The position numbers were made by a program, and so were the translations under genes. The notes beneath the pieces were generated by a model. The model ran no database searches and had not been told where the DNA came from. It saw nothing but the letters and a program-made list of their open reading frames with translations. Shown here one piece after another: positions 11,227 to 13,800 of a DNA stretch of 64,000 nucleotides. Source of the DNA: Cytophagales bacterium (lineage in GTDB: Bacteria; Bacteroidota; Bacteroidia; Cytophagales; Spirosomataceae); the NCBI GenBank assembly GCA_013298025.1, contig JAAFJE010000011.1:1-64000 (forward strand), given 5' to 3'. Position 1 is the stretch's first letter, and each line of letters begins with the position of its first letter.

Positions 11227-11934
11227 ATGAAAATCATCCAAACTAACCAGATTTCTAAACGCTACATCATGGGCGAAGAGATTATCGACGCACTCAAATC
11301 AGTTACTATTGAAGTAGAAAAAGGAGAATATGTTGCGTTTATGGGGCCGTCGGGTTCGGGCAAATCTACATTGATGAATATTGTAGGATGCCTAGATACG
11401 CCTACGACTGGCACTTACATTTTGAATGGACAAGATGTAAGCCAAATGAGCGATAACGCCTTGGCAACGGTACGCAACAAAGAAATTGGCTTTGTATTTC
11501 AAACCTTCAACTTATTGCCCCGACAAACAGCCCTCGACAACGTAGCTTTACCACTCATTTACGCTGGTTACTCTAAGGCCGACCGCATCGAAAAGGCTAT
11601 GCTTGCCCTCAAAGGTGTGGGTCTTGAAAACCGGGCTGGACACAAGCCCAATGAACTTTCGGGAGGGCAACGCCAGCGTGTAGCAGTGGCAAGGGCTTTG
11701 GTTAATGACCCTTCTATCCTACTCGCCGATGAACCCACAGGAAACCTTGATACCAAAACCTCTTACGAAATCATGGATTTGTTCGACCAATTACATTCAA
11801 AAGGCAATACGATTGTGATGGTAACACACGAAGATGATATAGCCCAATACGCCCATCGCATCTTACGATTGAGAGATGGATTGGTAGAAAGCGATAAAAT
11901 CAACACCAATGTACGCAAAGCAAAGACTTTATAA
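11227..11934 (+). CDS. ABC transporter ATP-binding protein, MacB/LolD type
   Basis: A 235-residue ATPase. The Walker A motif GPSGSGKST is at about residues 40-48, a Q-loop (VFQTFNLLP) follows, the signature LSGGQRQRV is near 143, and Walker B is [12 protein letters not shown]. The sequence belongs to the LolD/MacB/FtsE-like subfamily, which powers lipoprotein release or macrolide/peptide efflux through FtsX-type permeases. No permease gene lies next to it; the following gene is a tRNA, so its partner must be elsewhere. The upstream membrane-TPR protein could be associated but has no FtsX features I can see. Confidence 0.9.
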
Positions 11935-12034: not shown

Positions 12035-12369
12035 CGCAGGATGGAGCAGTAGGTAGCTCGTTGGGCTCAAGTTGTTGCAAAATTGAAAACTTTAGATTCA
12101 CTCGTTTAGAGTTTTTTACATCAATTTGCAAAGGGGCTGCGTAGAAAGAAATTTTTACGTGATTTTTTGTCAAATTCGGGGAAGCCTTAGAGTATGGTAA
12201 TCCCGAGCCAAGCTTTGAGAAATCAAAGAAGGTGTAGAGACTGAATGGCAAATACCTGACCGAGCAATCGAAGGTAAAGAGACAGTCCAGACCACAAACA
12301 GAAATGGTAGCGAAAGCTATAGTGGTAAGCATAACCCAAAGGCCGCAGGTTCGAGTCCTGCTCCTGCTA
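12035..12369 (+). tRNA. initiator tRNA-Met (CAT), interrupted by a group I intron
   Basis: The exons are 12035-12067 and 12330-12369; joined they give a 73-nt tRNA without encoded CCA. Acceptor arm: CGCAGGA with TCCTGCT, leaving C1 opposite T72 unpaired, a hallmark of bacterial initiator tRNA. D arm: GAGC/GCTC. Anticodon arm: TTGGG-CTCATAA-CCCAA, with GGG/CCC pairs typical of initiators and anticodon CAT. T arm: GCAGG-TTCGAGT-CCTGC. Discriminator A is at 12369. The anticodon loop is split after U33, exactly before the anticodon. A tRNA scan without group I intron handling would probably miss this gene. Splicing is needed to make a functional initiator, so the intron must be active if this is the only copy. 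Confidence 0.93.
12068..12329 (+). mobile_element. group I self-splicing intron in tRNA-fMet anticodon loop
   Basis: A 262-nt intron. The 5' exon ends in U (12067) and the intron ends in G (12329), as group I chemistry requires. Core helices I can pair by eye: P3 TGTCA (12168-12172) with TGGCA (12246-12250); P4 TCGGG (12176-12180) with CCCGA (12202-12206); P5 GCC with GGT; P6 CTTTG (12213-12217) with CAAAG (12224-12228); P7 GACTG (12239-12243) with CAGTC (12283-12287); P8 TACCT (12253-12257) with AGGTA (12272-12276); P9 TAGC-GAAA-GCTA (12308-12319). P1 may use GGCT at 12135-12138 as guide; that is uncertain. No reading frame lies inside. Subgroup IC3 is likely from size and site, not proven. 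Confidence 0.93.
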
Positions 12370-12377
12370 CTAATTTT

Positions 12378-12420
12378 AAAAGCCAATTATTTGAAATTCA
12401 AGTAGTTGGCTTTTTATTTT
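12378..12420 (+). terminator. terminator after tRNA
   Basis: AAAAGCCAA (12378-12386) pairs with TTGGCTTTT (12406-12414), followed by a T-rich tract. It ends the tRNA transcript 63 bp before the endonuclease start codon, so the endonuclease is outside the tRNA transcription unit. Confidence 0.8.
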
Positions 12421-12432
12421 GTCTATACTTTT

Positions 12433-12883
12433 ATGAATACTGATACTAAGCTCAAAGGTGATATTGCAGAACAAGCAGTAATATATAATGCACTTAAAAA
12501 AGGCTGGGGTGTACTAAAACCTATAGGTGATAGACTTCCATACGATTTAGTTTTAGATATAGATGGTTCGCTCATTTAAAATACAAGTAAAAAGTGCTTG
12601 GTTTGATGAAAAAAGACAAAATTTTGTCGTAGATAACAGGCGAACCAAGACTAATCGACGTAGAATGGTTAGAACATACTACCATGCAAGTGATTTTGAT
12701 TTTGCTATCGTTTATATTGAGCAATTAGAAGTATTCTATATCATCCCTGTGCTTACTTTTATTAGCTACAGTTCTGAAATTCATTTAGTTGAAATGCAAA
12801 ATCGACAACGAAGAGCCAAATCATTCGAGTTTAGAGAAGCGTGGCATCTTCTTCAGAAATCTTCTTTGTCTCCAACTACTTAA
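12433..12883 (+). pseudogene. frameshifted PD-(D/E)XK homing endonuclease (I-Ssp6803I-like)
   Basis: The frame opens at the ATG at 12433 and reads KGDIAEQAVIYNALKKGWGV, KPIGDRLPYDLVLDIDGSLI, then hits TAA at 12577-12579. One extra T in the run at 12575-12577 shifts the frame; reading on in the next frame gives KIQVKSAWFDEKRQNFVVDN to the stop at 12883. Repaired, the protein is 149 residues with the catalytic pattern YDLVLD...KIQVK of the group I intron-associated PD-(D/E)XK endonucleases (PF11645). The founder, I-Ssp6803I (about 150 residues), cuts tRNA-fMet genes and is encoded by a cyanobacterial tRNA-fMet intron. Here the gene lies just downstream of the tRNA, not in the intron. Probably inactive; a sequencing error or +1 frameshifting cannot be excluded. 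Confidence 0.85.
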
Positions 12884-12894
12884 AAAGGCTTTTA

Positions 12895-13800
12895 ATGGAA
12901 CAACTCAATCATAAAGCTGGCTTTGTCAGTATCATTGGCAAACCCAATGTTGGTAAATCTACCTTAATGAATGTCTTGGTAGGCGAACGCCTCTCTATCA
13001 TTACTTCAAAAGCCCAAACGACTCGGCATCGTATCATGGGTATTTTGAATGGAAAACACCAAGATACCGATTTTCAATTGGTTTACTCCGATACGCCCGG
13101 TATTATTTTACCTAAATATGAGCTTCATAAGTCGATGATGACTTTTGTGCATAGCTCGCTAGAGGATGCCGATATTATTTTGTTTGTCACAGATATTTTT
13201 GAAAAATACGACGAAGACAACGTAATCGACAAGCTTCGCCGCATCGACCACGTGCCTGTTTTTCTGCTTATCAATAAAATTGATTTGGCAACAGAAGAAC
13301 AAGTACAAGAGAAAATTGCCCATTGGCGTGAGCGTTTTCCAACCCAAGAAATTATTCCGATTTCGGCTTTAGCCCAACAAAATATTGGACTGATTTTCGA
13401 TAAAGTCGTAGAAAGATTGCCTGTTCATCCGCCTTATTTCGACAAAGATGAACTAACCGACAAGCCCGAACGCTTTTTTGCAGCAGAGATTATCCGAGAG
13501 AAAATCTTTAAGAATTATAAAAAAGAAGTGCCTTACTCTTGCGAAGTAGCCATTGTGAGCTTTAAAGAAGAAGAACGCATCATTCGGATTTCTGCCGAAA
13601 TTTATGTCGAACGCATTACGCAAAGGGCTATCCTTATCGGGCATAAAGGCGAATCTATCAAAAAAGTAGGTACGCAAGCCAGAGAAGAAATGGAACAGTT
13701 TTTCGGGAAAAAGGTCTTTCTCGAACAATTTATCAAAGTTGAACCCGACTGGCGACAAAAAGCCCAAAAACTCAAACAGTTTGGGTATAGTCAGGATTAA
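12895..13800 (+). CDS. era: GTPase Era
   Basis: A 301-residue protein, starting at the ATG at 12895 (MEQLNHKAGFVSIIGKPN); the longer frame upstream overlaps the endonuclease gene and is not needed. The G1 motif is GKPNVGKST, G3 is DTPG, G4 is NKID and G5 is ISA. The C-terminal KH domain carries the GHKGESIKKVG loop and ends in KVEPDWRQ. Era binds the 3' end of 16S rRNA and assists 30S subunit assembly at the membrane-associated ribosome pool. It lies 280 bp upstream of der, the other ribosomal GTPase, in the same direction, as often seen in Bacteroidota. Confidence 0.97.
   Translation: MEQLNHKAGFVSIIGKPNVGKSTLMNVLVGERLSIITSKAQTTRHRIMGILNGKHQDTDFQLVYSDTPGIILPKYELHKSMMTFVHSSLEDADIILFVTDIFEKYDEDNVIDKLRRIDHVPVFLLINKIDLATEEQVQEKIAHWRERFPTQEIIPISALAQQNIGLIFDKVVERLPVHPPYFDKDELTDKPERFFAAEIIREKIFKNYKKEVPYSCEVAIVSFKEEERIIRISAEIYVERITQRAILIGHKGESIKKVGTQAREEMEQFFGKKVFLEQFIKVEPDWRQKAQKLKQFGYSQD

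Follow-up and report, generated by a model that had tools for sequence, protein, structure and literature searches.

A Cytophagales initiator tRNA gene, apparently the only one in its genome, with a group I intron and a neighboring endonuclease gene: a layout that resembles collaborative homing

Introduction

Group I introns are inserted in the anticodon loop of cyanobacterial tRNA-fMet genes (PMC8450103), and the closest described counterpart of the locus reported here is the tRNA-fMet intron of Synechocystis PCC 6803. This 655-nt intron encodes the endonuclease I-Ssp6803I (PMC1995217), whose gene is located in P1 and overlaps into P1/P2 (PMC3073962). The tRNAscan-SE 2.0 analysis lists 36 bacterial genomes in which the fMet or Ile2 call is missing through group I introns (PMC8450103). 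A different arrangement is found in cyanophage S-PM2, where the gene for F-CphI adjoins the intron-bearing psbA gene and is not encoded by the intron. Cleavage by F-CphI has been demonstrated (PMC6083498), and in this process, termed collaborative homing, the enzyme cuts intronless alleles and the intron shields its own (PMC6083498, PMC3984707). Collaborative homing has been described from two phages, as a stage from which mobile introns may have arisen (PMC3984707).

The window analyzed here is a stretch of 64,000 nucleotides from a Cytophagales genome. It shares with Synechocystis the interrupted gene and the endonuclease family (PF11645), but the Synechocystis endonuclease gene is inside the intron, whereas the gene in the window is outside, downstream of the tRNA, and broken. 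The layout resembles phage collaborative homing transposed to bacterial chromosomes, with an endonuclease gene that adjoins the intron-bearing gene as F-CphI does. The S-PM2 system belongs to a phage and has a protein-coding target and an endonuclease of another family; the window, in contrast, presents a bacterial chromosome, a tRNA as the putative target and an enzyme of the PD-(D/E)XK class. Among the papers listed by a literature search, judged by titles and abstract openings, none concerns initiator tRNA introns in Bacteroidota or describes a gene of the I-Ssp6803I type that lies beyond its intron; the classic papers (Biniszkiewicz 1994, Paquin 1997, Bonocora and Shub 2001) fall outside this scope, and a prior mention is possible. 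Passages of PMC5143459, PMC5733544 and PMC3943268 contain nothing on either subject.

Results

Structure of the interrupted initiator tRNA gene

The evidence supports the prediction of an initiator tRNA-Met gene that is split after U33 by a group I intron. The exons and the intron elements are listed below.

12035 to 12067, forward strand: 5' exon of initiator tRNA-Met (positions 1-33, ending in U33); the joined exons give tRNA-Met(CAU), and the exon is identical in four same-genus intact loci (L209-L212)
12068 to 12329, forward strand: group I intron of 262 nt with final base G and no internal endonuclease reading frame (RF00028, covariation, fold z = -4.0; the endonuclease model matches only downstream)
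12134 to 12137, forward strand: proposed internal guide sequence, GGC 12135-12137 with exon GCU 12065-12067 (U33.G; P1 of 3 bp), drawn by eye
12134, forward strand: possible P10, G12134 with C34, drawn by eye
12140 to 12159, forward strand: P2, 12140-12147 with 12152-12159, GAAA loop; 8 of 8 pairs changed on both sides (47 sequences)
12166 to 12252, forward strand: P3, 12166-12171 with 12247-12252; 100% paired in 47 sequences
12176-12180 with 12202-12206, forward strand: P4, within P3; 100% paired in 47 sequences
12184-12186 with 12196-12198, forward strand: P5, within P3 (helix count on 47 introns)
12207-12209 with 12231-12233, forward strand: P6, within P3 (helix count on 47 introns)
12213-12216 with 12225-12228, forward strand: P6a, within P3 (helix count on 47 introns)
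12239 to 12287, forward strand: P7, the guanosine-binding helix, 12239-12242 with 12284-12287; paired in 47 of 47
12253-12257 with 12272-12276, forward strand: P8, within P7 (helix count on 47 introns)
12292 to 12325, forward strand: P9, 12292-12295 with 12322-12325 (helix count on 47 introns)
12307-12311 with 12316-12320, forward strand: P9b, GAAA loop (helix count on 47 introns)
12330 to 12369, forward strand: 3' exon of initiator tRNA-Met (C34 to A73), from the joined-exon call; it matches the intact gene of G003, a genome of the same genus, at every base (L211)

ARAGORN typed the joined exons (12035-12067 plus 12330-12369) as tRNA-Met(CAU). On the unjoined DNA the program made no call by default, and its intron option miscalled a Leu(CAA) tRNA with a 262-nt intron. 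The features that mark an initiator are the CAU anticodon, the C1:U72 mismatch and an anticodon stem with three G-C pairs; these last two and A73 were read from the sequence. Analysis of the window with cmscan matched RF00028 (Intron_gpI) at 12112-12310 on the forward strand with 75.7 bits (E = 2e-17) over the complete model (1-253), and this was the sole Rfam match in the window above its gathering score (cut-off 50). The fold of the intron, calculated with the P3/P7 pseudoknot excluded, had a z of -4.0 against 200 dinucleotide shuffles, none of which was as low (0/200).

A ten-helix structure (P2 to P9b) was written from the window intron itself and counted on 47 related introns of the same tRNA site from many phyla. 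Of 78 rows, 60 carry the guide motif GGGC in the expected column, and the 47 are a manual choice among these 60, so the motif is invariant in the 47 by selection. Across the ten helices 95.8% of 2205 cells were paired, a measure that is favored because the structure was taken from one of the counted sequences; these sequences also share ancestry with one another. Double-sided changes occurred in 30 of the 47 base pairs, at least one in each helix; P7 has them in two of its four pairs, in one sequence. Sliding the partners by 1-3 columns lowered pairing to 34-42%, and 0 of 500 shuffles reached any of the five measures. The group I core of P3 to P9 with its P3/P7 pseudoknot is evident from the full-length model match and from the 100% pairing of P3, P4 and P7 in the 47 relatives. 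At the junctions, U12067 stands opposite guide G12135 in a pairing drawn by eye, and the intron ends in G12329.

GNRA loops on P2 and P9 and a tRNA host are the signature of the IC3 subgroup, and GAAA loops were read in the sequence on P2 and P9b. The Azoarcus tRNA-Ile(CAU) intron, an IC3 intron that is not known to encode an endonuclease, is likewise a tRNA anticodon-loop group I intron with a 3-bp P1 and GAAA loops on P2 and P9; it differs in the tRNA and the position of insertion.

The initial annotation had proposed from the letters alone a group I intron in the initiator anticodon loop, a 262-nt insert that follows U33 and ends in G, with drawable helices P3 to P9. The insert and its terminal G are borne out in the sequence, the exon and intron boundaries agree exactly with the joined-exon tRNA call, and the core is backed by covariation over the 47 relatives. 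Two of the analyses that it had suggested, the RF00028 search (75.7 bits, full model) and a tRNA call on the joined exons (here by ARAGORN, tRNA-Met(CAU)), bear out the assignment.

Copy number and genomic setting of the initiator gene

One RF00028 match is present in the assembly, which comprises 53 contigs (5.44 Mb in all) and is 99.97% complete. ARAGORN typed 45 of its 46 tRNA-model matches and left a 35-bit match (L070) untyped; the CAU tRNAs among the typed matches were separated by eye into two elongator-Met and one Ile2. Neither the 46 matches nor a pattern for the uninterrupted anticodon arm revealed an intact initiator tRNA in the rest of the assembly. Every stretch that resembled this arm differed from it at two or more bases, and both elongator genes are among those with two mismatches. 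tRNA-Ala(UGC) and tRNA-Ile(GAU) are also missing among the 46 matches, probably because the rRNA operons are unassembled. The interrupted gene is, as far as visible, apparently the only initiator, with the limit that 53 contigs and two missing expected tRNAs leave room for an initiator gene in an assembly gap. The initial annotation had made dependence on splicing hinge on this point, and its premise stands as far as the assembly allows.

Among 119 related genomes the initiator was intact in 97, interrupted in 8, both in 0 and neither in 14, of which 3 are <90% complete. Since intact and interrupted genes never occur together in the 119, translation initiation in the host probably needs splicing.

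Two protein-coding genes, named by eye from the sequence, flank the locus.

11227 to 11934, forward strand: ABC-transporter ATPase gene, upstream flank
12895 to 13800, forward strand: Era-type GTPase gene, downstream flank

In all four same-genus genomes (G001-G004) the intact initiator gene has the ABC-transporter gene on the corresponding side; the Era-type gene lies on its other side in G001, G003 and G004 and is unmatched in the stretch taken from G002. These shared flanks place the interrupted gene at the native locus. None of the four same-genus genomes has the intron, and no endonuclease gene was found at their intact loci.

The downstream endonuclease gene

The initial annotation had overlooked a homing endonuclease gene that adjoins the tRNA. 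Its elements follow the 3' exon.

12378 to 12414, forward strand: terminator-like hairpin after the tRNA, a 17-pair stem then a T run (pattern match only)
12433 to 12579, forward strand: endonuclease piece 1, 48 aa, PD-(D/E)XK, I-Ssp6803I family (PF11645, 58.1 bits, profile 2-46 of 138)
12563 to 12883, forward strand: endonuclease piece 2, 106 aa, in another frame (PF11645, 94.4 bits, profile 46-137 of 138)

The ATG at 12433 is 103 nt past C34, which places the gene outside the intron and not in its P1 loop. The gene is not a single reading frame in the window; it runs in two frames and is broken in the assembly, which would represent either a late, fixed stage of the homing cycle or a sequencing error. 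The E, D, Q and K residues, presumably the catalytic residues of PF11645 endonucleases, are present in the two pieces and conserved in 31 of 31 endonucleases. An intact relative matched PDB 2ost, the structure of I-Ssp6803I, with an E of 1.5e-60. The dN/dS of outside genes was 0.05-0.19 in seven pairs (dS >1 in three; an eighth outside pair was saturated); the one inside pair compared gave 0.085. These low ratios argue that the outside genes are maintained and are not debris, and by this codon comparison those of the relatives are under purifying selection.

Linkage of intron and endonuclease among relatives

Among the 119 relatives the endonuclease gene was found in 7 of 8 interrupted-initiator genomes versus 1 of 97 intact ones (Fisher p = 3e-9, in a test that ignores kinship). 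The window's own broken gene is one of the seven. The gene is whole and adjoins the interrupted tRNA in G031, G039, G054, G055 and G056, and in Fibrella (G057) the intron occurs on its own. In the sole intact-initiator genome with an endonuclease above the cut-off (G032), the gene directly follows the intronless initiator tRNA and has an internal stop (L229), a state that may be either intron loss or a free-standing stage. In G066 the gene is on another contig, where 17 bp that duplicate the 3' end of the tRNA lie beside it. The repeated 17 bp (L223, L215) are AGTCCTGTTCCTGCTAC; the 3' end of the initiator tRNA was apparently used as an attachment site, and an integrative element with an integrase-like gene, recognized by eye, apparently separates the tRNA from the endonuclease gene.

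An even draw of 395 Bacteroidota genomes held 10 with an interrupted initiator: the window's own genome, a second from its class and eight that belong to a single family. PF11645 was above the cut-off in nine genomes of the draw, and among the 10 interrupted ones only in the window's own. The collaborative-homing layout, an endonuclease gene that adjoins the tRNA and is outside the intron, is seen at the locus; its linkage with the intron holds across the 119 relatives and is weaker phylum-wide (1/10). One of the other eight PF11645 genomes (L245) has the endonuclease beside a group I match, in the inside-type arrangement. In two further Bacteroidota loci (L246, L249) PF11645 genes lie between tRNA-Pro and tRNA-Ser or tRNA-Cys with no group I match above the cut-off; these are perhaps homing genes for other tRNAs. 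The eight interrupted genes of family f57 in the draw (L237-L244) have introns of 266-279 nt and no endonuclease in the 3 kb taken, and the intron of this family is perhaps long settled.

Distribution across phyla and evolution

Interrupted initiator genes were sought in GTDB genomes with a pattern in which the base before the initiator 3' exon is G and not U33. At least 114 stretches matched, and the 80 that were fetched include Spirosoma, Fibrella, Hymenobacter, Saprospiraceae and Rhodothermaceae. Interruption of the initiator U33/C34 site is seen in many phyla and is not rare. The initial annotation had taken such introns to be known mainly from cyanobacteria and some proteobacteria and was aware of none in Bacteroidota; rarity in this phylum does not hold, given the Bacteroidota among these matches and the 36 genomes listed in PMC8450103. 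A 5' exon was recognizable upstream in 73 of the 80 fetched loci, and that of L095 is normal. Among the seven others, three acidobacterial loci (L116, L118, L130) have an intron core and an initiator 3' exon preceded by sequence that is not a tRNA half. Intact initiator genes are present elsewhere in two of these three genomes (G506, G507), which makes theirs partial copies; in the third (G505, with L116) a search of the genome with a 5'-half pattern gave no match. Because most fetched records are MAGs (66 of 80 by title), their binning may be wrong.

The intron tree was built from 77 of 78 rows (72 from the scan, the window's own and four relatives; L095 was dropped), and L215 of G066, with its displaced endonuclease gene, was labeled outside by hand. 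By record names, mostly of MAGs, the 77 introns fall in 16 phylum-level groups among the matches listed. The window intron groups with those of G039, G054, G066 and G031 (support 100/99), and the Spirosoma and Fibrella introns are placed elsewhere, so that one family holds two separate intron groups; gain and loss are indistinguishable from this topology. Sequence matches identify three members of this family as Spirosoma oryzae, Fibrella aquatilis and a Cytophagales MAG, which makes Spirosomataceae the probable family of the window.

The endonuclease is inside the intron in 18 of the 80 fetched loci out of at least 114 (14 whole, 4 as pieces or fragments), outside and downstream in 14, upstream on the opposite strand in one and absent from 47, seven of which have <600 nt of downstream DNA. 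Whole inside domains begin 2-24 nt past the 5' splice site (14 loci) and whole outside domains 104-139 nt past C34 (16 of 16 loci measured). The outside cases among the fetched loci are in Cyanobacteria (Nostocales, Oculatellaceae), Bacteroidota and one Omnitrophota MAG contig. A single origin of the outside location was rejected (AU p = 7e-5; 31 endonucleases, 17 outside and 14 inside). The starred branches of the endonuclease tree force at least three changes between inside and outside, in a tree with 11 of 28 forks weak. Both this tree and that of the introns are built from short sequences.

Recent horizontal arrival was not supported: intron identity to the g36/g28 relatives is 81-82%, compared with 79% for Era and 74-77% for the ABC gene, and closeness to the Era value leaves no sign of recent transfer. 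Co-conversion of a foreign 3' exon would not be visible, because the window's 3' exon is identical to the intact G003 gene. Viral carriage of the exact intron-exon junction had 0 exact pattern matches in viral_contigs; an Era protein query of the same collection found no relative and bears neither way on viral carriage.

Discussion

We consider it likely that the intron at U33/C34 of the apparently sole initiator gene and the downstream I-Ssp6803I-family gene are the two halves of one mobile element, the intron being the half that lacks an endonuclease. The pre-tRNA would self-splice by the standard two-step group I route with a guanosine cofactor: the GCU of the 5' exon would pair with the GGC guide, P7 would bind G and the terminal G would mark the 3' site. 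The outside enzyme would cut intronless initiator genes at the anticodon region, and repair from an intron-bearing copy would transfer the intron, the 3' exon and the endonuclease gene jointly. The specificity of I-Ssp6803I is reportedly for the anticodon region of tRNA-fMet, going by the title of Bonocora and Shub from 2001. With that specificity retained, repair would copy an outside gene lying ~100 nt from the cut along with the intron. In the host the endonuclease gene would since have decayed into two frames, leaving a cell with a resident intron that it must splice.

An alternative is that the intron is immobile and vertically inherited and the endonuclease is an unrelated free-standing homing gene that targets the tRNA and has no part in intron movement. 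We regard this as unlikely. Introns that lack the gene are indeed found, in Fibrella (G057), at 47 of the 80 fetched loci and in 9 of the 10 genomes of the phylum draw whose initiator is interrupted; G032 has a decayed endonuclease beside an intact, intronless initiator; and intron divergence is about that of host genes. Against this view, an unrelated gene is hard to reconcile with the 7/8 versus 1/97 linkage, the PF11645 family occupies the P1 loop of the same intron in other phyla, and vertical inheritance is opposed by the absence of the intron from four same-genus genomes and by two separate intron groups within one family.

Two further explanations concern the intron itself. The interrupted gene could be a dead remnant with the functional initiator hidden in an assembly gap, a view to which the draft assembly, the missing Ala-UGC and Ile-GAU tRNAs among the 46 matches and the two acidobacterial genomes with a partial interrupted copy alongside an intact gene lend some color. 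It is very improbable given perfect exons and an intron core with its pairs present, the 0 of 8 interrupted genomes with an intact copy among relatives of which 97 others have an intact gene, and the same-genus intact gene at the very same locus. Removal of the intron by a protein endonuclease, as in archaeal-type splicing, is scarcely credible: the full-length group I model match, P7 paired in 47 of 47, the terminal G and the U at the 5' junction all favor self-splicing.

Returning to the two-part element, whether the initiator tRNA of bacterial chromosomes hosts it generally, with an endonuclease gene that has switched repeatedly between the P1 loop and the outside slot across phyla, is in our judgment evenly balanced. 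Because a gene placed within P1 shares sequence with the guide and with P2, translating it may interfere with splicing, a conflict that the outside slot would avoid. If the proposal is correct, living bacteria display the proposed steps of mobile intron formation and decay: a gene beside an intronless target, an intron with an outside gene, an intron with an inside gene, and an intron alone. The collaborative-homing layout recurs in bacterial chromosomes at one essential gene, with the same endonuclease family inside the same intron elsewhere, and the presence of both forms at one site makes the order of events, from outside to inside or the reverse, testable. The distribution suggests that in many phyla bacteria may depend on a ribozyme to begin translation, with sole-copy status drawn from the 119 relatives. 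It also suggests that ordinary tRNA annotation loses the initiator tRNA at interrupted genes.

Group I introns also interrupt other tRNA genes in the host family. Among 24 RF00028 matches in relatives, eight introns were placed by eye in tRNA-Leu(UAA) (L037, L041, L044-L047, L052, L054), L041 through its 3' exon; L032, L042 and L048 were left without a tRNA assignment. Exon joins typed by eye placed two introns in tRNA-Ile2(CAU) (L035, L039) and three probably in tRNA-Arg(UCU) (L043, L050, L051).
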